From NCBI GenBank assembly GCA_018433765.1, contig JAHDQO010000004.1, positions 248,001-312,000 of the forward strand: a DNA stretch of 64,000 nucleotides. The letters run 5' to 3'. Origin of the DNA: Tissierellales bacterium. GTDB lineage: Bacteria; Bacillota; Clostridia; Tissierellales; Sedimentibacteraceae. The first letter of the stretch is position 1. Each line of letters begins with the position of its first letter. The position numbers and the translations under genes are program-made. This document shows, one piece after another, positions 17,325-28,658 of the stretch. The notes beneath the pieces were generated by a model. The model ran no database searches, was not told where the DNA came from, and saw nothing but the letters and a program-made list of their open reading frames with translations.

Positions 17325-18089
17325 CTAAGATTCCTCACTTTTTTTCGTATTATATTTAAGCTTATCTTTTATCCTATAGGATGGACCTGTTATGTTAAAT
17401 AAATATGAATGATGAAGTAATCTATCTAGTATTGCTTTTGTTATCATCTCATCATTACCTAATATTTGTGGCCATTTTTCAAAAGTTATGTTGCTAGTTA
17501 TGATGGTTGATCTTTTTTCATATCTCATATCAACTAATTGAAAAAATAACTTTGATTCTAGTTCTGATATTTCATTAAATCCAACTTCATCAATAATTAA
17601 AAGTTTATATTTATAGTAAAGCTTTAGCTTTTTTTCAATTGTTCCTTCGTTATGTGCTTGTTTTAAGTTGTTGATTAGTTTTGAGAATTTAATAAAATAC
17701 ACACTGTTTCTTTTTATTGCAACTGCATATCCTATAGCAACTGCCAAATGACTTTTTCCTACCCCGGGATTTCCTACAAATAATACATTTGTTCCATCTT
17801 CATAAAAGTTAGAATTGATAATCGCCTGTATTTTTTCTTCCTTGATGGATGGTTGAAAAGAAAAATCGTAATCATTTATCGTTTTAACAAAAGGAAATGC
17901 AGCTACTTTGACATTATATAATTTATTGTTTTCTTCCTTTGCATCTACTTATTTATTTAGGACTTTATTTAATCCTTTTAGTTCAGCGTTTGTTATATTG
18001 TCATTGATATGTAATTCCTTTAAATAGGCATGTGCTGATTTCAATTTTAAATATTCAAGTTTATCTAAAACTTCATTAATCATTGTCAT
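17325..18089 (-). pseudogene. istB: istB-like transposition helper ATPase with an internal stop
   Basis: The frame reads continuously from ATG at 18089, overlapping the istA stop, to 17325, about 254 codons. It has Walker A GNPGVGKSH and Walker B LLIIDEVGF, the IstB/DnaC-type AAA ATPase that brings target DNA to the transposase. Codon 47 (17949-17951) is TAA, in the context KVLNK-stop-VDAKEEN. A fragment restarted downstream would lack the N-terminal region. Confidence 0.85.
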
Positions 18090-19344
18090 ATGCTATTGCC
18101 TCCATCTCTTCAAGTATTATTGTCGGTGTATTCTTATCTGGTCGTAACTGCTTTTCATAAAATAAGTTGTGATTTTCTTTTATATTTAATTTTTTATTAG
18201 TTATTTGATGATTAGTTATGATTTTACTGTTATAATAAACTTGAAGTTTGTTGTTTTTAATGATTCTTCCTACTTTTTTACCTATAAACTGTTTGGGCAC
18301 AGAATATTTGTTAGATTTGTAAGAGATTAACGATTCATTACTAACAACGACTTCTTTTAATTTTAGATAGTAATTCGCTCGAATCTCTTGATTGGGTAAT
18401 GGTTGAAGTTTTTCTTTCTCGTACTTAAAAAGAAAAACAGGCGGAAGATTTGTTCCTTGTGATATGGATTCATTATCTTCGTTATTTATTATTTCAAGTA
18501 TTCTATGAGCATCATGAACATCTTGATATGTACCACCATAATTTTTAAGTTGAGCAGGTACTTTATTCTGCGTTTCAGTTTTGCCTTTTGTTTGAGGCCT
18601 TCCTGGTATGCATGGGAATATTTCTAGGTTATAATCTTTTGCGAATTGCATAAACTTTACATTTAATTTTGCCTCATTTCCATTTCTTCTTGGTTGATCT
18701 ACGAGACATTTAATGTTATCAATCACTAATTCCTTTGGAATACCTCCTATTTCTTCAAATGAACTTGCTAGAAACGAGATAACCGTTTCATATGATGTAT
18801 CAGGAACAATTTTTCTTACATTAAATCTGCTAAATCCTAACGTAAGCGTTGCAACATGTACTGTCGTTTTATTGCCCAACGTATCAATAATAGGGACTTT
18901 TTCTTTAAGGTCAAACTGTGCTTGTTTACCTGATTCTGTCTCAAATCTTCTTATAAATACATCTCCTTTCTTAGATTTATGAAACAGTTTTGACAACTTA
19001 TCATCCATTGAGATATACCTTCTAAACGTGGAATATTAGCATTCAATGCCATTTTCACGTTTCATAAAGTTATACAAATGCTGAATATACTCAAAATCTT
19101 TGTATTCATCATTTAACAGATCAATCATTATGTTTTTAAAATCATCTAGATACTTTCCGCGAGATTTTGTTTTAGCTGGAATAAACCCGTTTAAAGCTTT
19201 TCTCACAGTTTTTCTATCAGCACCAATAGCTTTAGATAGTTTTGTTATATTCGGTTTCATAATTACACCTTTCAAATATGCTGAAGACAACATTCTTATG
19301 TCTTCTATAGATTTTAATAGTCCGTAGTTTATACTTATTTCCAT
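18076..19344 (-). pseudogene. istA: istA-like transposase with an internal stop
   Basis: The frame runs from ATG at 19344 (six bases after GAGGTG) to 18076, about 422 codons, interrupted only by TAA at 19036-19038. The N-terminal part has an HTH (ITKLSKAIGADRKTVRKAL). The second part has the DDE integrase core, including TLTLGFSRF and the region PRPQTKGKTETQN-like at IPGRPQTKGKTETQNK. Both halves are in the same frame, so a single base change inactivated it. Confidence 0.85.
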
Positions 19345-19430
19345 TTTCATCACCTCGAAATAAGTATAAACGAAAATGCACCCAAGTGGGGAATTTCTCC
19401 TGCATTTTTTTGGGTACATTTAGTTTAACA

Positions 19431-20480: not shown

Positions 20481-20689
20481 TCTAAATCCCCCATCATGTC
20501 TTTCATTTTTTTAAACATTTCAAGGTTTTTTATTAGTTCTTTTTTAGGTACATTATTTGGTAATTTATTTAAGTAATCATTTAATTTATTTTTATCTCCA
20601 TTTTCATATATTTCAATAATCTCTTCCATTAGTTTTTCATCCAAACTAGCAAGAAATAATTCAATTGATTCATTAAAGTAATTGTCCAT
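20477..20689 (-). CDS. Small acidic protein of unknown function
   Basis: A 70-aa helical protein, MDNYFNESIELFLASLDEKL at the start, rich in Glu, Lys and Asn, ending MKDMMGDLD. An AAAGGAAA site precedes the ATG. I do not recognise a family. It follows rlmH on the same strand. A fragment resembling its last codons occurs at about 14118-14130 in the left repeat, so it appears to predate the duplication. Confidence 0.6.
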   Translation of the reverse strand: MDNYFNESIELFLASLDEKLMEEIIEIYENGDKNKLNDYLNKLPNNVPKKELIKNLEMFKKMKDMMGDLD

Positions 20690-20787
20690 TTTTTTTCCTT
20701 TCTAAAAAATATACATCTTTATTTCTAAATTTTCTTAACAGTCATCAATGGTTCGTATAAATCAACGTTCTTTTACTTCCGTATGCT

Positions 20788-21267
20788 TTACTTATGATAA
20801 GGTTCGCCGTTAAATATCTTAAATCCTCTATAGATTTGTTCGAGAAGTATAACTTTAAATAGCTGATGAGGAAATGTCATTTTTGAGAAAGATATCATTA
20901 GATTAGCTCTATTTAAAACATCTTTAGATAATCCATTACTACCACCTATAATAAAAACAATATCAGATATACCATCTAAGCCTAGATTGGTTATTTTTTT
21001 TGAAAATTCTTCAGATGATAACTGTTTGCCTTCAATAGCCATGGCAATAACATATGAGCTGTCTTTTATATTTTTTAGTATTTTCAAGCCTTCTTTAACT
21101 TTAATTTGATTTACTTCCTTGTCTGAGAGTTTTTCAGGTGCTTTTTCATCAGGTACAGTTATTTCATTTAAAGCACAATATCTCGATAGTCTTTTTTTAT
21201 ATTCATTTATGGCATTTTTAAAGAAATTTTCTTTTATTTTTCCCACTGAAAGTATCGTTATTTTCAT
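20788..21267 (-). CDS. rlmH: 23S rRNA pseudouridine(1915) N3-methyltransferase RlmH
   Basis: A 159-aa SPOUT methyltransferase that modifies helix 69 of 23S rRNA. Family features: MKITILSVGKIK at the start, the SAM-knot IIGGSNGLS, and the conserved C-terminus KMTFPHQLFKVILLEQIYRG followed by GEPYHK. Length is standard. In staphylococci the last codons of this gene are the insertion site of SCC elements; here a second, diverged copy of those codons lies 6.6 kb away. Confidence 0.96.
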   Translation of the reverse strand: MKITILSVGKIKENFFKNAINEYKKRLSRYCALNEITVPDEKAPEKLSDKEVNQIKVKEGLKILKNIKDSSYVIAMAIEGKQLSSEEFSKKITNLGLDGISDIVFIIGGSNGLSKDVLNRANLMISFSKMTFPHQLFKVILLEQIYRGFKIFNGEPYHK

Positions 21268-21302
21268 AATTGTTGTTTTCCTTTTCTTTGAAGATAAGTG
21301 TT

Positions 21303-21923
21303 TTATTTATTTTTATAATTTGGCCCTGCTATACCTTTAAAAATCATATTTAGAAACAATTCAAATTGAATTTCAGATGTAGAAATTGAAATATTACCAT
21401 TTTTCATCCATTTAAAAAATGCTGCAAAATACATACCTAATAAGCTTTTAGCGACATTTTCAGGATTTAGTTCTCCTAATATTTCACCCTTTTTTTGTGC
21501 TTCTTCTATTAAAACGAGAAGAATATCTTCTATTTCTTTGATAGGCATAGGATAGTTCTCATCTTTAAATACAGTGAACCATATCACTCTACGAGTGAGA
21601 CGTAAAAAAGAAATACTATCTTCAGCAAAGTGTTTTAAAGCAATTTGTATCTTTTCTACTGGACTTTCTACTCCAACTAAATCAGCTTCTATTAAATATT
21701 TTATTTCTTCTATTTCATCGGCTGCAATACCGTCAAGTAAGCTTTCTTTTGTAGGAAAATAATTAAAAAATGTACTCTTAGATACATCAGCTTTTTCTGC
21801 AATTTCTCCTATTGATGTATTATCGTAATCTTTTTCTTGAAAAAGTGCTCTCGCAGCTTTTAATATTCTTGCTTTACTTTCAAGCTTTTTACGCTCACGG
21901 CGGGATAACTCTGTACTAGCCAT
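21303..21923 (-). CDS. TetR-family transcriptional regulator
   Basis: A 206-aa protein with a TetR helix-turn-helix (IGEIAEKADVSKSTFFNYFP) at about residues 35-55 and an all-helical ligand domain. AGGAGG precedes the ATG. It lies downstream of, and on the same strand as, the ferredoxin-nitroreductase gene, and could control it. The ligand is unknown. Confidence 0.92.
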   Translation of the reverse strand: MASTELSRRERKKLESKARILKAARALFQEKDYDNTSIGEIAEKADVSKSTFFNYFPTKESLLDGIAADEIEEIKYLIEADLVGVESPVEKIQIALKHFAEDSISFLRLTRRVIWFTVFKDENYPMPIKEIEDILLVLIEEAQKKGEILGELNPENVAKSLLGMYFAAFFKWMKNGNISISTSEIQFELFLNMIFKGIAGPNYKNK

Positions 21924-22010
21924 AAATTGCGCCTCCTTTTATATAAATGCATAAAATGTATCTTATAGTTATTTATAACATACTACAATTCATATTACAA
22001 CTTCAAATTG

Positions 22011-22910
22011 CTATTTTATACCCCACTTAATTTCGGGTGTTCTTTTAGGTACTCCACAGTAAAATGAATATTTGGGATAACCTAATATTATAGCTACCTG
22101 TGGTATGCATCCTGCTGGTAATTTTAGCTGCTTTCTTAATCCTGTATTATTATTTAGAGCAACTATAAAGTATCCTATTTGTCTACTTCCCAATCCCAGT
22201 TTATGAGCTGCTAACATTATGTTATAAGAAGCATATATAGAATCATCTCTGCCGAAATAAACATTAGAGGGAGTATATCCAATGAGTACTACAGGTGCAT
22301 TATAAAATATAGGGTCTTCACCATTTCTATACCTTTTATTCAAGTCAGAGAAACTAACAGCACTATGCATTGTTTCCTTATATTTTTTCTTACCTAAAAC
22401 TATATTTATAAATGGTTTATATACAGGATTATGTAAAATTTTGCTCAAGCCAAACAATACTTCAACTGTTTTTTTACTGAAATATTTTATTTCAGTATTT
22501 TTATTTAGTATTAACCAATCTACTGATTGTTTATTTTGAGAACTTGGAACCCATCGAGAAATTTCTATAAGTTTTTCTATTAATGACTTATCAACAGGTT
22601 TTGATGAAAAATTTTTAATTGATCTTCTAGATTTAAAAAGTGTAACCATTTCTTCAAGTTTAGGCTGATTTTGTTCTGAAAATTGAGGACATTTGTTTAA
22701 AGGTAACAGATTATGTTGTATTGCACCGTATCTACAAGCTGCAATACAATGTCCGCAAGCTTTACACTCCTTGTCTTGCATTATTTTTATTTGATTATCT
22801 TCAATTTTAAAAATTTCTTCATTGCATACATCTACACATGTACCGCAGCGAGAACATTTATCAGCATTTATAGATATTTTATATTTGGTATTATTATTTA
22901 TAGTAATCAT
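22011..22910 (-). CDS. Ferredoxin-nitroreductase fusion protein
   Basis: About 299 residues. Two 4Fe-4S motifs at the N-terminus (CSRCGTCVDVC and CKACGHCIAAC) are followed from about residue 75 by a nitroreductase domain, with the FMN-binding SRRSIKNF and WVPSSQNKQ. These flavoproteins of anaerobes take electrons from ferredoxin. The start is uncertain: the ATG at 22910 directly abuts AAGGAG, and a longer frame to 22961 lacks any ribosome binding site. It is separated from the aminotransferase upstream by a terminator. Confidence 0.88.
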   Translation of the reverse strand: MITINNNTKYKISINADKCSRCGTCVDVCNEEIFKIEDNQIKIMQDKECKACGHCIAACRYGAIQHNLLPLNKCPQFSEQNQPKLEEMVTLFKSRRSIKNFSSKPVDKSLIEKLIEISRWVPSSQNKQSVDWLILNKNTEIKYFSKKTVEVLFGLSKILHNPVYKPFINIVLGKKKYKETMHSAVSFSDLNKRYRNGEDPIFYNAPVVLIGYTPSNVYFGRDDSIYASYNIMLAAHKLGLGSRQIGYFIVALNNNTGLRKQLKLPAGCIPQVAIILGYPKYSFYCGVPKRTPEIKWGIK

Positions 22911-22991
22911 CTCCTTCAAAAGTAATTGTAGTATCTTATATTTTTGTTTCTTTATATACATATATGTTTGTTTTATGTATCAATGTATAAA

Positions 22992-23036
22992 AAACTTCGG
23001 AGATAAGAAGTTAATTTTTTATTTCTCCGAAGTTTA
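22992..23036 (-). terminator. Terminator of the kinase-RLP-aminotransferase operon
   Basis: AACTTCGGAGA, a 20-base loop and TCTCCGAAGTT followed by TTTT on the minus strand, just after the aminotransferase stop. Confidence 0.8.
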
Positions 23037-23045
23037 TTTACAGAT

Positions 23046-24491
23046 TTATATTTCTATATTCTCAAATACTCTCTCAAATCTTTGCAGAACATCATCTATA
23101 ATATCGTCTGTGTCAGCCATACTAGTATATATACGACTTCCTGCAAGAGTAATCATTCTTTCAGCAGTATATGCAGAACCTATCTCTTCTAGTCTATACT
23201 TACGTTTTGTAATCTGCTCTAAAAAATCAGGTTTTCTTATATCTATGAACATAAGCCCTGTTGTTTCAAGATGGCATATTGATGCTTGATTATAAACTAC
23301 GAAAGGTAGCTTATATTTATTAATAAGCTTCTTAAGTCCATCACATAATTTGTCTCCTGCTTTTGCTGCTTTGATTGCTGCATCAGTTTCTTCTATTGCT
23401 TTTAAAGTATAGTAGCCAGCAGCACAGCTTAAAGGATTAGCAGAGAGAGTTCCACCTACATATGCACGTTTTTTAGTTCCTGCAACTCCCGAAGCTAAGC
23501 AGGCCATTACATCTTCTCTACCTCCAAGTCCACCAGCTCCTGGATATCCACCAGCGACTATTTTTCCAAATACGGTAAGATCAGGTTTTATTTCGAAATA
23601 GCCTTGAGCTCCACCCATACCAAGTCTAAATCCGGTTACAACTTCATCAAATATGAGTAAAGCACCAAATTCATCACAAAGCTCACGAACCTGTTGATTA
23701 TAGTCTTTAAAAACTGGTCTAGTACCACTTTCTGGGCCTACTGGTTCAAGTAAAACAGCAGCAGTACCACCATCTTTTTCATTGTTTTTCATCATTTTTC
23801 TCAAACCTTCTATATCATTCGGAAAAACTTCTTGAGTATCAGCAAGACAAGCTTTTGGAATACCATGGGACTCAAAAGCTCCTGTTCCAGGAATATGTAT
23901 GCCATAGACAAGTTGGTCACTCCACCCGTGGTAAGCTCCTCCAACTTTTATAATTTTGTTTTTACCGGTAAAAGTTCTTGCAGTACGAATAGCGGCCATA
24001 TCCGACTCTGTACCGCTTCCCAGCATTCTAAACATATCAACTGCAGGCATATGTTTATTTATGAATTCAGCTAGCTTGAGTTCATACTCATGAAATAAAC
24101 CCGTAACAGGACCGCACTCGTTTAGAAGATTTATAACTTTTTCACGAACCGGTTTATAATTACTTCCTAACAGCGTTGGGCCTCCAGCTTGTAAAAAATC
24201 AATATACTGGTTGCCATCAATATCCCACAAATAAGCACCTTCTGCTTTATTTATAGCTAGAGGAAAAGGATGATTAAATGCAAGATTGTGCTGAACTCCA
24301 CCTGGAATATATTTTTTGGCTCTATCTGTCATCTTTTTAGATTCTTTACATTTTGTTTCAAAGTATTCATTATATTCTTTCATTTTGTTACTATTAATTT
24401 TACAAACAGGTATATTAACAAGCTCACTTAATTTTTTTAATATTTCACCTGTGTTGTGCCATTCTGATATTGCATACTTTTGGTTAACCAT
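23046..24491 (-). CDS. Class III aminotransferase, glutamate-1-semialdehyde aminomutase-like
   Basis: About 481 residues with the full PLP fold of class III enzymes. Visible are YIPGGVQHNL, GSGTESDMAAIRTARTFTGK, GGAYHGWSD, the IFDEVVTGFR aspartate and the PLP lysine in FGKIVAGGYP. It is HemL-like, but the catabolic context without other heme genes argues against tetrapyrrole synthesis. The start is at 24491 after AAAGGAG. It lies 28 bases after the RuBisCO-like gene in one operon, so it probably aminates or deaminates a product of that pathway (inference). Confidence 0.88.
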   Translation of the reverse strand: MVNQKYAISEWHNTGEILKKLSELVNIPVCKINSNKMKEYNEYFETKCKESKKMTDRAKKYIPGGVQHNLAFNHPFPLAINKAEGAYLWDIDGNQYIDFLQAGGPTLLGSNYKPVREKVINLLNECGPVTGLFHEYELKLAEFINKHMPAVDMFRMLGSGTESDMAAIRTARTFTGKNKIIKVGGAYHGWSDQLVYGIHIPGTGAFESHGIPKACLADTQEVFPNDIEGLRKMMKNNEKDGGTAAVLLEPVGPESGTRPVFKDYNQQVRELCDEFGALLIFDEVVTGFRLGMGGAQGYFEIKPDLTVFGKIVAGGYPGAGGLGGREDVMACLASGVAGTKKRAYVGGTLSANPLSCAAGYYTLKAIEETDAAIKAAKAGDKLCDGLKKLINKYKLPFVVYNQASICHLETTGLMFIDIRKPDFLEQITKRKYRLEEIGSAYTAERMITLAGSRIYTSMADTDDIIDDVLQRFERVFENIEI

Positions 24492-24519
24492 CTTTACATT
24501 CTCCTTTATCATAATATTT

Positions 24520-25833
24520 TTATTTTTTACCTACTATTGAAAAAGGATCTTTCCAAGCTGTAAGGGAAGCTGCCAATTCTTTATGTTCTTTTGCTGCTTC
24601 TTCTAAAGAAACACCAGACATTGTAGCATCTATTGCCTGTCTAAAGGCTTTGGCACCTGCTGTTGCTCCTTGTGGATGTGCATGTATTCCTCCTCCTGAG
24701 CCTATAACAATATTTGGACCTAAATCTTTAATTACTTGAGGTACATTGGCAGGTGTTATACCACCTGAAGGCATTGGGAATGTAGGTTTGATGTGGTACA
24801 TAGGGAATGATAGATTCATAGCTATTCTTGAGAATTTTTCAGGTAAAACAGTGGCTTTACCATATGGTGCAGGATGTACAACTATATCAGCACCTGCTAA
24901 ACGAGCTAATTTACCCAGCATGATATGTGAACTCATTCCATATTCAGGTGACATGTGAAGTGCGCCAGCTACATCCATATGAGCTAATATAGGAACATTT
25001 ATATTAGGGTCTTCTGCTAAAGCTTTAAGAACAGGAAGTCCAGTAGCTACAAAATTAACCATTATTGCATTACATCCTAATTCAATAGCTCTTTTTGCAT
25101 TTTCAAATACTTTAGGAATATCATCTGTAATATTTACAGTATAAAGAGTTCTTTCTCCTTTTTCTTCGTAAATTTCTTTTTCAGCTTCCATATACAGCTT
25201 TACTCTTTGCTCTACTGTATTGAAAGAAGCATTTGCAATTAACTCATCATCTTTAACTATATCTACTCCACCTAATGCAGCTTCTTTAAACAATTGCACT
25301 CCTACTTCAGGTGTATATCCTGTACATGGTTTTATCATATTATTAAGTATAGGACGTTTAGGGACTCCTAATAATTTTCTTATTCCAGCTATACCAAACT
25401 TCGGACCTTTAAATCCTTCAACATATTTTTTAGGTAGATATAAATCAATTAACTTTATTTGACCAGCTAAAGAAATATTTCCAACAACGGTTGACATCAT
25501 CATAGCTATTTGTGAACCGAAATTTACTATAGGATAAGCTATCTGGATTATATAATTTCTTATTTTAACATCTGAAGGTACTATATACTCATAATCTGGC
25601 ACTTCATATAATGCTACTACTTTTGCAACGTGTTTTTGTCTAACTTCTTCAGTTTCTCCCGGTACAGGGATCCATGTTCCTGTAGACTGTTCTACAGCCA
25701 TTGCTGGAGCTAGCTTTGCTACTGGTATATTTGCTGGAAACTTAGCGAAATAAGTACCAATCATAAAATTTTCCATGTCTATATCTTCTTTTAATGAAAT
25801 GGGCATAGATTTAACATTAATATTACTTAACAT
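24520..25833 (-). CDS. RuBisCO-like protein (form IV)
   Basis: A 437-aa member of the RuBisCO large-chain family. The metal-site motif GGVDIVKDDE (188-197) with the lysine that is carbamylated in RuBisCO is intact. The catalytic-lysine region has become MIKPCTGYTPE (Lys168 kept, the second Lys lost). GSGGGIHAHPQGATAGA near the C-terminus is the phosphate-binding loop. Loop 6 differs from true RuBisCO, so carbon fixation is not expected. Known relatives are the MtnW enolase of methionine salvage and OiaX of apionate catabolism. The cotranscribed FGGY kinase suggests that it acts on a phosphorylated sugar acid. Good AGGAGG site. Confidence 0.93.
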   Translation of the reverse strand: MLSNINVKSMPISLKEDIDMENFMIGTYFAKFPANIPVAKLAPAMAVEQSTGTWIPVPGETEEVRQKHVAKVVALYEVPDYEYIVPSDVKIRNYIIQIAYPIVNFGSQIAMMMSTVVGNISLAGQIKLIDLYLPKKYVEGFKGPKFGIAGIRKLLGVPKRPILNNMIKPCTGYTPEVGVQLFKEAALGGVDIVKDDELIANASFNTVEQRVKLYMEAEKEIYEEKGERTLYTVNITDDIPKVFENAKRAIELGCNAIMVNFVATGLPVLKALAEDPNINVPILAHMDVAGALHMSPEYGMSSHIMLGKLARLAGADIVVHPAPYGKATVLPEKFSRIAMNLSFPMYHIKPTFPMPSGGITPANVPQVIKDLGPNIVIGSGGGIHAHPQGATAGAKAFRQAIDATMSGVSLEEAAKEHKELAASLTAWKDPFSIVGKK

Positions 25834-25921
25834 ATTTTTACCTCCTAATATTTTAAATTTTTTAATATTAATTATGTTTTTGTCTTTAAAGTTAATAAAT
25901 AAGATATGTTTTTATTTTAAT

Positions 25922-27493
25922 TTAAACAGTTTCAGCTATAGGTACTTCAATACTTGAATTAATTTCTTGGTGTGAATTAATATCTTTATATAATCTTTTC
26001 AGACATTTATATACCAATTTATAACCAGTATATAATCTGTCGTAAACGTATTTGTTTTCAAATCTTGGTGTGTATATTTTTTCAACTTTAACTTTATTCG
26101 AAGTAGCTTCAAAGTTAGGATATATCTTAAGACCTACAGCTGCTATGAAAGCTGCACCTACAGCACCGCACATTTGAGATTGTTCAACTTTCTTTATAGG
26201 ACGATGAATTATGTCTGCCATTATCTGCATCCATTCATCTGATTTTGAACCTCCTCCTATAACTTTTATAGTTGAAAGCGAGAAGCCATATTTCTTCTCA
26301 ATTATTTCTATTATCCATCTAAAATTAAAAGCTACACCTTCATATACAGCTTTTAGCATATGTTCACGTTTATGAGATGCACTTAAATTGAAAAAAGTTG
26401 ATCTTACGTATGTATCGCTAACAGGGCATCTTTCACCATAAATCCATGGTGTGAAAATTAAGTAATCTGACCCGGGTGGAATGTTTTTAATGCTTTCATC
26501 CATTAATCCATAAATATTTTTACAGTTAGAATCTTTTTGTTCATACCTATAAAATTCATTTTTAATCCATTCTAAACATACTCCAGCAGTTTCCATTTCT
26601 CCTAGTAGAATGTTTTTAAAAGGGTCTCCCGATTTTAGCATTACTACTCCGTTTTTGCCTACTGGTGTTTTAGCGGTTATTACTCCTACCCAACCAGATG
26701 TTCCAAGGCAGATATGGCCTTCACCTTCTCCTACTGCACCAGCACCAATAGCTGCACTTTGCATATCACCGCATCCTCCGAAAACAGGAGTACCCTCTAG
26801 CAGTCCGCATTGAATTGCAGCTTTTTTGCTAATCTCACCTACTTTATCTGTAGAATTAACTAGCTTAGGAAATTTTGTTATTTCTAATCCGATGTGTTTC
26901 ATGATTCCTCTCAGCCAATCTTGTTTCTTTAAATTAGCTCCTATTGTTGAAGCACATGACCATTCATAAACTTCATTGCCTGTCATTTTAAAAGTTAAAT
27001 AACCATTAACATCTAAAAAATATTTTGTCATTTCATAAATATTTGGTTTATTTTGCTTTATCCATAGCAATTTTGATAGTCCATCTTTTCCAGAGAGTGC
27101 TGTGCCGGCTATAGTAGAAAATAATCTTTTTCCCCCGAATTTGTTCATTATTTCATCAGCTTGTTTAGAAGCACGACCATCCATCCATATTATTGCAGGA
27201 TATATATTTTTCTTATCTTTGCCCATAGGAATTATACCAATTGTCTGAGTTGTAAATACTACACCTGCGATATCAGAAGGAGAAATACCTGTTTTCTTTA
27301 AAACTCTTCTTGTACTTTTACATACAGCATCCCAGTAATCCTCAGGATTTTGTTCAGCCCAATTAATTTTTGGATAGCTAATAGAATATGCTTCAGTACA
27401 ATAAGCTTCTATCTTCCCATCTAACCCTACTATTACTGCCTTATTACTACTTGTGCCTACATCATGAGAAATAATATATTGAGGTTTTGACAT
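25922..27493 (-). CDS. FGGY-family carbohydrate kinase
   Basis: About 523 residues of the xylulokinase/gluconokinase fold. The ATP phosphate-1 motif DVGTSSNKAVI opens the protein, with phosphate-2 CLGTSGWVG in the middle and adenosine motif IGGGSKSDEWMQIMADI toward the end. The start at 27493 follows CGAGGAGG; a longer frame has no site. First gene of the operon with the RuBisCO-like protein and aminotransferase, so it probably phosphorylates the pathway's entering sugar or sugar acid. Most known RuBisCO-like catabolic pathways use other kinase families, so this pairing is of interest. Confidence 0.92.
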   Translation of the reverse strand: MSKPQYIISHDVGTSSNKAVIVGLDGKIEAYCTEAYSISYPKINWAEQNPEDYWDAVCKSTRRVLKKTGISPSDIAGVVFTTQTIGIIPMGKDKKNIYPAIIWMDGRASKQADEIMNKFGGKRLFSTIAGTALSGKDGLSKLLWIKQNKPNIYEMTKYFLDVNGYLTFKMTGNEVYEWSCASTIGANLKKQDWLRGIMKHIGLEITKFPKLVNSTDKVGEISKKAAIQCGLLEGTPVFGGCGDMQSAAIGAGAVGEGEGHICLGTSGWVGVITAKTPVGKNGVVMLKSGDPFKNILLGEMETAGVCLEWIKNEFYRYEQKDSNCKNIYGLMDESIKNIPPGSDYLIFTPWIYGERCPVSDTYVRSTFFNLSASHKREHMLKAVYEGVAFNFRWIIEIIEKKYGFSLSTIKVIGGGSKSDEWMQIMADIIHRPIKKVEQSQMCGAVGAAFIAAVGLKIYPNFEATSNKVKVEKIYTPRFENKYVYDRLYTGYKLVYKCLKRLYKDINSHQEINSSIEVPIAETV

Positions 27494-28070
27494 ATTATAA
27501 GCCTCCTCGAACAATATTCTTATACACAATGCTTTAGCATAGTGTATTTATCTTAAAAAAGAACATAGCATTTACTTTTGAGGGCAGATTGAATAATGGT
27601 GTGCTGTCTTTAATAATTTGTATTTATAGAATTAATAATAGTGATGTAAATATAGATGGATTTTAAGAAGTTATAAAGTTAGATAAGAAATTTACGATGT
27701 GAGATGATGCTTTATGCAAATAGAAGCAATTCCATTTTAATTCATGGTTAGTTTTGCTATACTCTTTTCAAGGAACATTATGATTATATATAAATGTTAT
27801 AGCTAAATATTTAGTCACCTCCCATAGATTGAATTTATTATGAAAGTTAGGGTTGATTATATTATGAGTGATACTTGAGTAGTTTTTTACGGAGTTTACG
27901 TAGAATAAGAAATGCTTAATTTGAAATTATTATACCATAGTACAAAATTATTGTAAAGTACAATTTTAAAGTTTAGTACAAAAATTTATAGTTTACAATT
28001 TCACAAATCATAACAAAATATATGGTATAATGAAAGAAAAACCTTAAAAAAGAAAGGAATGGCGCATAAA
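27494..28070. other. Divergent intergenic region with 18-bp iterons
   Basis: Between the kinase operon (minus) and the glycosylase gene (plus). No gene. Three AGTACAA repeats at 27939, 27957 and 27975 are spaced exactly 18 bases apart, and a related TTTACAA lies at 27992. A TATAAT box at about 28026 may serve the glycosylase gene. GTGATGTAA at 27641 matches a half-site seen before a sigma-54 promoter at 43725. Confidence 0.5.
27939..27998. repeat. Short iteron array, 18-bp period
   Basis: AGTACAA occurs three times at an 18-base period, with a fourth degenerate copy, each followed by an A/T run. Tandem sites of this kind usually bind a regulator on one face of the helix. Confidence 0.5.
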
Positions 28071-28658
28071 ATGATTAATAAGACAAAAAAACGCTGTTCA
28101 TGGTGTTTAAAAGATCATATCTATATCAAGTATCATGATGAAGAATGGGGCGTTCCTGTACATAATGATAGGAAGCATTTTGAATTTCTTGTATTGGAAT
28201 CTGCTCAAGCTGGTTTAAGCTGGCTTACTATATTAAAGCGAAGAGAAGGTTATAGATTAGCTTATGATGGATTCGATCTAGTTAAAGTAGCTGGATATGG
28301 TGAAAAAAAAGTTGAGGAAATGATGAATTATGAAGGTATTATACGAAATAGGAGAAAAATAGAATCATCAATAAAAAATGCAAAAGTATTTTTAAAAATA
28401 CAAGATGAATTTGGAAGTTTTGATAAATACATTTGGTCATATACAGACCAAAAAACTATATTAAATTGTTTTAAAGAATTAAAAGAAATGCCTGCAAAAA
28501 CAGAACTTTCAGAAAAAATAAGCAAAGATTTAAAAAAACGAGGATGTTCATTCTTGGGACCTACAATTATTTATTCATATTTGCAAGCTGTAGGAATTAT
28601 AAACGATCATTTGGTTGATTGTTTTAGGTATGAAGAGTTAAAAAATATTAAGGAGTAA
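28071..28658 (+). CDS. tag: DNA-3-methyladenine glycosylase I
   Basis: About 195 residues that excise 3-methyladenine from DNA. The Tag signature is complete: RCSWCLKDHIYIKYHDEEWG with the zinc cysteine, LESAQAGLSWLTILKRREGY, and the C-terminal GCSFLGPTIIYSYLQAVGIINDH region with the zinc histidine. An ATG 12 bases upstream (28059) abuts AAAGGA, so the second ATG is preferred. The MarR gene starts 5 bases after the stop. Confidence 0.95.
   Translation: MINKTKKRCSWCLKDHIYIKYHDEEWGVPVHNDRKHFEFLVLESAQAGLSWLTILKRREGYRLAYDGFDLVKVAGYGEKKVEEMMNYEGIIRNRRKIESSIKNAKVFLKIQDEFGSFDKYIWSYTDQKTILNCFKELKEMPAKTELSEKISKDLKKRGCSFLGPTIIYSYLQAVGIINDHLVDCFRYEELKNIKE

Follow-up and report, generated by a model that had tools for sequence, protein, structure and literature searches.

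In a 64,000-nucleotide stretch of the genome of a Tissierellales bacterium (GenBank assembly GCA_018433765.1, contig JAHDQO010000004.1, positions 248,001 to 312,000; hereafter the window), three co-directional minus-strand genes form an operon that encodes, in this order, an FGGY-family kinase, a RuBisCO-like protein (RLP) and a class III aminotransferase. We give a probability of about 50% to the reading that this operon serves to break down an amine that has a CH2OH group next to it, which would be converted via a 1-phospho-2-ketone and be delivered to RLP chemistry at C2-C3. The operon probably breaks down an amino alcohol and would add to the catabolic RLP pathways. As judged from sequence comparison, the conserved element of the arrangement appears to be the amine step, and the exchange of non-orthologous enzymes at this step is the strongest hint that the present analysis gave. 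RuBisCO evolution has been argued from RLPs, few of which have a known reaction. The neighbours of the window's clade, which spans several bacterial phyla and archaea, would narrow the substrate to an amine that becomes a 1-phospho-2-ketone, and the reaction could be tested with a small panel.

RLP loci (L numbers) were collected by one profile scan with an alignment of five RLPs, from which the best 80 loci were taken as a sample and not as a census, and by added searches of 249 genomes of the window's order (6 matches including its own genome), 301 genomes in the phylum of L013, a Dehalococcoidia metagenome-assembled genome (MAG) (4 matches at E<=1e-110), and 398 genomes of the window's phylum (30 at E<=1e-90). 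Neighbours within 6 kb of the RLP were counted by tblastn, independently of gene calls, at 114 loci; L007 (a fragment), L084 and L213-L215 (copies of L057, L085 and L066) were dropped. An amine enzyme was found at 24 of the 44 loci of the window's clade and at all 5 loci of a second group (L003, L004, L060, L061, L127; hereafter the HAD group), as against 1 of 65 other RLPs, namely L137 of a third clade. A laxer repeat (E 1e-4, four more class III aminotransferase queries, same genome) again gave 24/44, 5/5 and 1/65. The Fisher p for 24/44 versus 1/65 is 4e-11 with related rows treated as independent, and the other RLP loci have the longer flanks (6 kb on both sides in 41/65 versus 17/44 in the window's clade). 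FGGY kinases were found within the same distance at 27/44, 3/5 and 18/65 loci, the two misses in the HAD group having 1.5-kb flanks. Thus, the aminotransferase partner, which the initial annotation had called unusual, is instead conserved, and the FGGY kinase, which it had set against the kinases of known catabolic RLP pathways, also stands beside other RLP clades and so is not the distinctive part. Without 14 Loki- and Thorarchaeal rows, the amine enzyme was present at 24/30 loci of the clade; the six misses are three cut contigs (L025, L026, L039) plus L045, L046 and L190.

The amine enzymes of the 24 loci are of three kinds: HemL-like aminotransferases (12 loci), class III aminotransferases resembling those for gamma-aminobutyrate (GABA) or acetylornithine (5 loci; L009, L018, L022, L035, L189), and saccharopine-dehydrogenase-like proteins, which belong to another fold family (7 loci; L008, L011, L012, L014, L015, L017, L019). 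Where they can be aligned, the GABA-like and HemL-like enzymes share 22-32% identity. In the seven genomes that carry the saccharopine-dehydrogenase-like protein, a search for the HemL-like subfamily with a limit of 1e-60 revealed no copy, the best match being 40% identical. The presence of three non-orthologous amine/carbonyl enzymes at one operon place indicates that the pathway has an amine-to-ketone step or its reverse. Among the matches listed in the open-access PubMed Central (PMC) literature, there was no description of a route that joins a kinase, an amine enzyme and an RLP, in agreement with the earlier suggestion of an undescribed route.

The window's genome contains a second aminotransferase, 62% identical to the first, on contig C17. 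Its operon consists of a TetR gene followed by the genes for the aminotransferase, a class II aldolase, a major facilitator superfamily (MFS) transporter and an FGGY kinase, and contains no RLP. The aldolase has two domains, of which the first has the His and Glu positions of FucA as judged by eye. In 391 genomes of the window's class, this aminotransferase subfamily was found in 13 genomes at 15 loci (E<=1e-100): four with an RLP (window, L126, L127, L137), nine with a class II aldolase (L109, L128-L131, L133-L136), one with a fructose-bisphosphate aldolase (FBA)-type enzyme and nagA (L138), and one cut at the contig end (L132). The aldolase type also occurs on plasmids of Butyrivibrio fibrisolvens and Burkholderia ambifaria (L124, L125), and both module types are present in three genomes: that of the window (G000), G267 and G635 (the spirochaete of L033; L150, L151). 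Placing the RLP/aldolase label on the tree of the aminotransferases takes 3 changes, as against 9.7 for shuffles. The kinases cross between the types as well: the aldolase locus L134 carries a window-type kinase (47% versus 32% identity), and the RLP loci L127, L060 and L061 carry a C17-type kinase (43-51% versus 28-32%). From this partner exchange and kinase crossing, the RLP and the class II aldolase seem to be alternatives that act on one phosphorylated ketone or on two closely similar ones. Fuculose and rhamnulose are degraded by an FGGY kinase and a class II aldolase to dihydroxyacetone phosphate (DHAP), and the sister modules follow the same kinase-aldolase logic, with the differences that an aminotransferase instead of an isomerase would make the ketose-like intermediate and that in the window the RLP replaces the aldolase. 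The cousin module L138 (L138:6035-13898) contains nagA, an FGGY kinase, an aminotransferase of 47% identity, an FBA-type aldolase and an alcohol-dehydrogenase-like gene; it probably handles an N-acetyl amino sugar derivative, possibly as an N-acetyl amino-alditol pathway.

The RLP is a Form IV RuBisCO-like protein that is not MtnW, the enolase acting on 2,3-diketo-5-methylthiopentyl-1-phosphate (Form IV YkrW), and belongs to a clade of its own with bacterial and archaeal members. It is the sole PF00016 match in the genome, and both of its domains (PF02788, 43.8 bits; PF00016, 166.9 bits) exceed their cut-offs, which places it in the RuBisCO superfamily. It stayed below the cut-off of all 6 RuBisCO-family models that it matched, including the MtnW models TIGR03332 (348 versus 513.6 bits) and PRK09549 (394.4 versus 409), the Form III RuBisCO model TIGR03326 (272 versus 497.45) and the OiaX model NF042437 (197.5 versus 700); with K177 and R295 lost, it is not a bona fide RuBisCO, and its adjoining kinase is of the FGGY and not of the DUF1537 type. 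In a tree of 98 rows, it fell in a clade of 41 (SH-aLRT 97), and in a larger tree of 129 rows in a clade of 44 (SH-aLRT 98), where its companions come from Chloroflexota, Actinomycetota, Thermodesulfobacteriota, spirochaetes and archaea, Asgard archaea among them. The genuine MtnW proteins L087, L088 and L089, the last two from mtn operons, formed a separate clade with support of 100. These were quick searches with a midpoint root, which gave the deep joins little support and included some long rows; the second tree left out the Vibrio L098 and the photo-type L093, and its 129 rows stand for 126 different locus records since the copies L213-L215 stayed in. The predicted fold (mean predicted local distance difference test score 91.2, predicted template modelling score 0.90), a ligand-free monomer model that does not bear on the pocket, was nearest to MtnW (2zvi; Z 50.1, root-mean-square deviation 2.0, 382 aligned), and Form III RuBisCO ranked only a little lower (3a12; Z 45.6, 2.0, 411 aligned), the order among solved structures being MtnW first and then other RLPs and RuBisCO. 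The RLP scored 303.4 bits with MtnW and 111.8 bits with 3qfw, a member of the DeepYkr group to which the isomerase of Rhodospirillum rubrum belongs.

The Asgard RLPs of the clade come from Thorarchaeota (L021, L024, L027, L029, L032) and Lokiarchaeota (L034, L037, L038, L041-L044, L047) and lack a same-strand kinase or amine enzyme in their vicinity. The thorarchaeal genes adjoin formate-tetrahydrofolate ligase-like genes, with folD in 4/5 by eye. A hopanoid link, considered for an HpnA-like gene beside L030/L031, was dropped at 228.5 bits versus a cut-off of 367.65 (L030 scanned).

Active-site columns were read from MAFFT alignments that included one RbcL each of Form I and Form II, and are given in plant RuBisCO numbering (window residues in brackets). 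The RLP retains E60 (E48), T65, W66, N123 (N119), K175 (K168), the KDDE carbamyl-lysine motif with K201/D203/E204 (K194/D196/E197), H294 (H285), K334 (K326), S379 (S356) and the glycines of the phosphate-1 site. T173 is replaced by Met, K177 by Cys (C170) and R295, the arginine of the phosphate-2 (far phosphate) site, by Met. The H327 column was not used because of a nearby indel (6 instead of 7 residues to K334). The initial annotation had reported the carbamylated-lysine motif as kept, as it is, and one catalytic lysine kept with the second lost, a description that held for K175 and K177 and missed the loop-6 lysine K334, which is kept. In the 44-row clade, N123, K175 and K201 are each conserved in 44/44 rows, E60 and K334 each in 43/43 rows having a letter, and R295 is Met in 42/44. 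Of all 129 rows, 104 (including the three copied loci) retain both E60 (or D) and K334, 21 have lost both, 1 has only one of the two and 3 have gaps. The losses fall on MtnW (3/3) and on an 18-row clade (18/18), some operons of which hold triosephosphate isomerase (TPI) and RpiB genes; the pair is kept nearly everywhere else. In RuBisCO this pair positions CO2. We do not call the RLP a plain enolase mainly because E60 and K334 stay together; since most other clades keep the pair too, and the clade with the most decarboxylase-like context has lost it, it is no proof of CO2 chemistry.

MtnW resembles the window's RLP in fold, in identity (~38-43%) and in the carbamyl-lysine motif, and its pathway also includes a kinase, a phosphatase and a transaminase, of which the kinase and transaminase families differ from those of the window. 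The catalytic lysine of MtnW, Lys98 in 2oek, aligns with N119 (N123) and is Lys in 3/3 MtnW and Asn in 44/44 clade rows; compared with MtnW, the RLP further has Glu for Gly at E60 and Lys for Ser at K334, lies in a separate clade and has no mtn genes beside it. As MtnW's lysine is missing, RuBisCO-like deprotonation at C3 is the simpler assumption.

From the observed genes, their conservation, the exchange of partners and the residues, we infer a substrate type, an order of steps and a reaction. The aminotransferase would convert C-NH2 to C=O and the FGGY kinase would phosphorylate the terminal CH2OH, the two steps being possible in either order. Their product, CH2OP-CO-CH(OH)-R, would equal carbons 1-3 of ribulose 1,5-bisphosphate (RuBP), and such a 1-phospho-2-ketone would be the kind of compound bound by RuBisCO-family enzymes. 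The phosphate-1 site of the RLP may then hold the C1 phosphate while Mg2+ sits on carbamylated Lys194, and the enzyme would act at C2-C3, most simply by abstraction of the C3 proton as in RuBisCO. In the sister modules, the class II (fuculose-phosphate type) aldolase would take the RLP's place and yield DHAP and an aldehyde, which an aldehyde dehydrogenase (ALDH) would oxidise. The aldolase version would require a C4 hydroxyl and the RLP version only a C3 hydroxyl. The candidate outcomes of the RLP step are, in falling order of likelihood, a carbonyl shift (isomerase), decarboxylation if the substrate is an acid, or carboxylation with C2-C3 cleavage to 3-phosphoglycerate and an acid; isomerase and decarboxylase are ranked above carboxylase mainly because, to our knowledge, only those two are known for RLPs.

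Several points weigh against this reading. None of the 14 Loki- and Thorarchaeal rows, several of which lie on short contigs, showed an amine enzyme within 6 kb (0/14); with L045, L046 and L190, these rows indicate that the RLP also occurs without an amine enzyme or unlinked to it. That the saccharopine-dehydrogenase-like protein acts on an amine is suggested by its family only. The queries for amine enzyme, kinase and ALDH were taken from loci under study, so that source loci match themselves, and the context counts come from a similarity-ranked sample with many MAG contigs, related genomes and mechanical gene calls. As for the sister modules, the well-supported branches of the aminotransferase tree alone force only 1 RLP/aldolase change, none of the module aldolases exceeded a curated cut-off, and decarboxylases, dehydratases and epimerases belong to the class II aldolase superfamily as well. 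Finally, retro-aldol cleavage needs a C4 hydroxyl, which sphinganine lacks, and the two module types may therefore not share one substrate.

The alternative that survives best, though we regard it as tentative, is that the RLP is only an isomerase, which would move the carbonyl of a 1-phospho-2-keto-3-hydroxy compound to C3 and leave the later steps to genes encoded elsewhere. This is known RLP chemistry: the 5-methylthioribulose-1-phosphate 1,3-isomerase of R. rubrum (Form IV DeepYkr) likewise acts on a ketose 1-phosphate with one phosphate, according to PMC6302742, and PMC7325909 holds most RLPs to be isomerases or epimerases. An MtnX-like phosphatase follows the RLP in L003, L004, L060 and L061 (two of the four were scanned and were below the mtnX cut-off), and an HAD protein follows the aminotransferase in L126. 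L014, L015 and L017, however, show by eye no obvious further enzyme beside kinase, amine enzyme and RLP, and E60 and K334, both lost by the enolase MtnW, are kept.

As for the substrate of the proposed amine module, the clues come mostly from the aldolase type. L125 encodes an ALDH3-type enzyme (benzaldehyde dehydrogenase 5ucd, 329.2 bits; class 3 chains, 326-328; fatty aldehyde dehydrogenase 4qgk, 319.5; next classes <=171), and for the ALDHs of L125, L124, L130 and L131 the best NCBIfam model was the benzaldehyde dehydrogenase MdlD, below its cut-off. By tblastn within 6 kb, an ALDH3-type gene accompanied the aminotransferase in 5/12 aldolase modules (L124, L125, L130, L131, L133) and was seen near none of the RLP loci with an amine enzyme (0/30), nor near any of all the RLP loci (0/114). 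The difference between 5/12 and 0/30 has a p of 0.0009, or of 0.012 without the query-source loci L124 and L125 (3/10 versus 0/30). The ALDH gene of L134 lies 6.9 kb away, that of L124 is separated from the aminotransferase gene by IS66 genes, and L132, which has an ALDH, was left out because its contig ends behind the aminotransferase. GtrA-type membrane proteins occur in three aldolase modules (L124, L134, L136), and in L125 an Mpo1-like gene (2-hydroxy-palmitate dioxygenase family) lies behind the ALDH gene on the other strand. The aminotransferase FumI, which acts on aminopentol (hydrolysed fumonisin), removes the C2 amine of a sphingoid-like base without oxygen, as stated in PMC2933618. 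Such signs would be expected for a long-tailed 2-amino-1,3-diol. The most likely substrate class would thus be 2-amino-1,3-diols, possibly with a long alkyl tail as in sphingoid bases; if the substrate is a sphingoid base, the route would be an oxygen-free breakdown of sphingolipid backbones. Against the sphingoid idea, the signs are indirect, FumI is not a close relative (91.8 bits with 6hbs), and an aromatic aldehyde would fit the ALDH equally well. The phosphorylated sugar acid or amino sugar of the initial annotation was narrower than this evidence, which indicates an amine converted to a 1-phospho-2-ketone and weakly an apolar tail.

It is possible, though rather doubtful, that the substrate is instead hydrophilic, an amino sugar alcohol or amino sugar and not a lipid base. 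Sugars are the usual substrates of FGGY kinases and FucA-like aldolases, L138 has a nagA deacetylase over the cut-off (319.2 versus 225.65 bits) together with its 47% aminotransferase relative, FGGY kinase and FBA-type aldolase, and MFS transporters occur in L061, L109, L150 and others. The Met at R295 in 42/44 rows and the ALDH3-type dehydrogenases and GtrA proteins in part of the sister modules argue against it.

Less probable still is an OiaX-like decarboxylase, by which a beta-amino acid would become a 3-oxo acid that is phosphorylated at the 4-hydroxyl and then decarboxylated, an OtnC-like member of the class II aldolase family doing the same job in the sister modules. OiaX, itself an RLP, and the aldolase-family 3-oxo-tetronate-4-phosphate decarboxylase are a pair of such alternative decarboxylases and serve as the precedent. 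OiaX (3-oxo-isoapionate-4-phosphate decarboxylase) likewise adjoins a kinase in a catabolic operon, three module aldolases weakly match the 3-oxo-tetronate-4-phosphate decarboxylase model (59.9, 73 and 88.4 bits versus a cut-off of 250), and K334 and an acidic residue at E60 (E or D) are present in all RLPs of the OiaX/DUF1537 type (6/6). OiaX is ~27-31% identical and has the DUF1537-type kinase and no amine enzyme seen. Against a decarboxylase, R295 is kept in 6/6 of the OiaX/DUF1537 type and is Met in 42/44 rows of the window's clade. In addition, the ALDHs of the aldolase modules would stay unexplained, and the 18-row clade, which includes some operons like the OiaX route (TPI, RpiB, FGGY; L071, L082), has lost E60/K334 in 18/18, so that the pair is no simple marker of decarboxylation.

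Quite unlikely, in our estimate from the sequences, is that the RLP is a true carboxylase on a non-RuBP substrate, which would enolise a 1-phospho-3-hydroxy-2-ketone, add CO2 at C2 and cleave C2-C3 to give 3-phosphoglycerate and a carboxylic acid (a fatty acid in the case of a sphingoid base). The residues that bear on it, E60, N123, K175, K201, D203, E204, H294 and K334, are kept and K177 is lost. If true, the three genes would complete a pathway without aldolase or ALDH, and the lack of ALDH near the 30 RLP modules against 5/12 aldolase modules, the kept E60, N123 and K334 together with Met at the far-phosphate arginine, and the handling of substrates that lack a C4 hydroxyl and that a DHAP aldolase could not cut would all be explained. 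With nearly the whole RuBisCO active site kept, the protein is a good place to ask about CO2 handling on a non-RuBP substrate.

That the genes work in the biosynthetic direction and make an amino-polyol or sphingoid-like compound is improbable: transamination and aldol steps are reversible, but the ATP-dependent kinase and the TetR regulators and MFS transporters in some loci fit breakdown better. Least credible by far is an MtnW of methionine salvage with an unusual kinase and transaminase, since, for all that MtnW is the nearest family by score and fold and four HAD-group relatives have MtnX-like phosphatases, the RLP lies outside the MtnW clade with Asn at the Lys98 position in 44/44 rows, there is no mtn gene among the neighbours read, and acireductone dioxygenase had no match in the genome. 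The trees and neighbours thus do not refute the initial annotation, which would have fallen if the protein had grouped squarely with MtnW near methionine-salvage genes. An mtnA gene (423.4 bits versus a cut-off of 279) is located elsewhere, on contig C7 (L110:8759-10535), 52 nt from a same-strand class II aldolase-like gene identified by eye. In PMC6302742, mtnA with a class II aldolase is the DHAP shunt arrangement, and the pair on C7 is likely such a shunt for methylthioadenosine or 5-deoxyadenosine. Given this pair and no match to acireductone dioxygenase, disposal of methylthioadenosine need not involve the RLP.

The kinase belongs to the FGGY family (FGGY_N, 188.1 bits; FGGY_C, 104.2 bits; both over the Pfam gathering scores). 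Its best NCBIfam model was the xylulokinase model TIGR01312, whose cut-off it did not reach (339.5 versus 380.25 bits), and XylB proper was rejected. The aminotransferase is of class III (Aminotran_3, 188.7 bits, over the gathering score) and carries the PDLTVFGKIVAGGYP motif, the lysine of which we take to bind pyridoxal phosphate (PLP). It is not glutamate-1-semialdehyde aminomutase (HemL), scoring 292.8 bits with TIGR00713 versus a cut-off of 527.3, and no gene over the hemL cut-off was found in the genome. A HemL role in tetrapyrrole synthesis was dropped because no hemA exceeded its cut-off there either (best 28.9 versus 209.55 bits). The hemL models align only from residue 55-58 onward, leaving an N-terminal extension, and the enzyme scores higher with HemL and D-phenylglycine aminotransferase than with FumI.

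The host genome is 4.19 Mb (completeness 100, contamination 3.25), and the window lies within contig C32. The operon genes and the features behind them are listed in the table. The gaps are 88 nt between kinase and RLP and 7 nt between RLP and aminotransferase, and a hairpin follows the last gene, as the earlier description of closely spaced genes with one terminator had it. The mechanical open reading frame (ORF) of the kinase opens at TTG 27529; the ATG at 27493 has GAGGAGG close upstream. RNA folding covered a 76-nt stretch with the hairpin (-18.4 kcal/mol, z -5.48, 1/200 shuffles equal), after which a U run follows, and the RLP/aminotransferase gap. A simple terminator scan gave 2 other sites versus 3.3 expected by chance and did not list the hairpin because its loop is 20 nt and the scanner limit 8. 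Promoter and terminator scans showed no excess over shuffles, and Rfam had no match across 20500-28500.

Table. Features of the operon and its downstream region in the window
Feature	Coordinates	Strand	Evidence
FGGY-family kinase, operon gene 1, 523 aa	25922..27493	-	PF00370/PF02782 over cut-off; ribosome-binding site
RuBisCO-like protein (RLP), 437 aa	24520..25833	-	PF02788 and PF00016, model fold, 44-row clade, residues
Class III HemL-like aminotransferase, 488 aa	23046..24512	-	PF00202; 62% paralogue in same genome
Terminator-like hairpin after aminotransferase gene	22992..23035	-	RNA fold, 12-bp stem, U run
Nitroreductase with ferredoxin-type 4Fe-4S domain, possible accessory gene	22011..22961	-	PF00881 and Fer4 models
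TetR-type regulator, possible operon regulator	21303..21923	-	PF00440; like place in L126 and L016

L126 (genome G267) repeats the kinase-RLP-aminotransferase order with identities of 77%, 88% and 86%, and continues behind the aminotransferase with an HAD protein, a nitroreductase (62% identical to that downstream of the window's hairpin), an amidohydrolase and a TetR gene (81%). L016, a Tepidanaerobacteraceae MAG with an RLP of 75% identity, keeps the partial order RLP, aminotransferase, nitroreductase and TetR; its nitroreductase is a different one (PF14512) at the matching place, and its TetR counterpart is 64% identical. TetR-type genes also adjoin L060, L061, L127 and several aldolase modules. 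At 18076-19419 of the window, two adjoining ORFs resemble by eye parts of an insertion-sequence transposase.

Further RLP neighbourhoods were seen in the same collection. L192-L204, from the window's phylum, form a 13-row sister clade whose RLPs are 54-60% identical to the window's, have Leu at R295 in 13/13 and adjoin a PEP-hydrolase-like protein (PEP, phosphoenolpyruvate). Most of these loci also contain a small protein resembling ComB phosphosulfolactate phosphatase by eye, a Tm-1-like protein and a second PEP-hydrolase-like protein; we know of no function for an RLP pathway of this type. The RLP of L217 (52%) has a similar neighbourhood at another place in the tree. In L071 and L082, the RLP lies near genes labelled by cluster as FGGY kinase, 2-hydroxyacid dehydrogenase-like, triosephosphate isomerase-like and RpiB, resembling the OiaX route (compare L096) with another kinase and with E60 and K334 lost. 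The RLPs of L052-L054, L059, L063, L070, L074, L078 and L086 lie near genes for GlpA/GlpB-type anaerobic glycerol-3-phosphate dehydrogenase, mostly with an FGGY kinase, and a distant RLP on a Vibrio nigripulchritudo plasmid (L098) is accompanied by an ABC transporter, two transketolase-type genes and an FGGY kinase.

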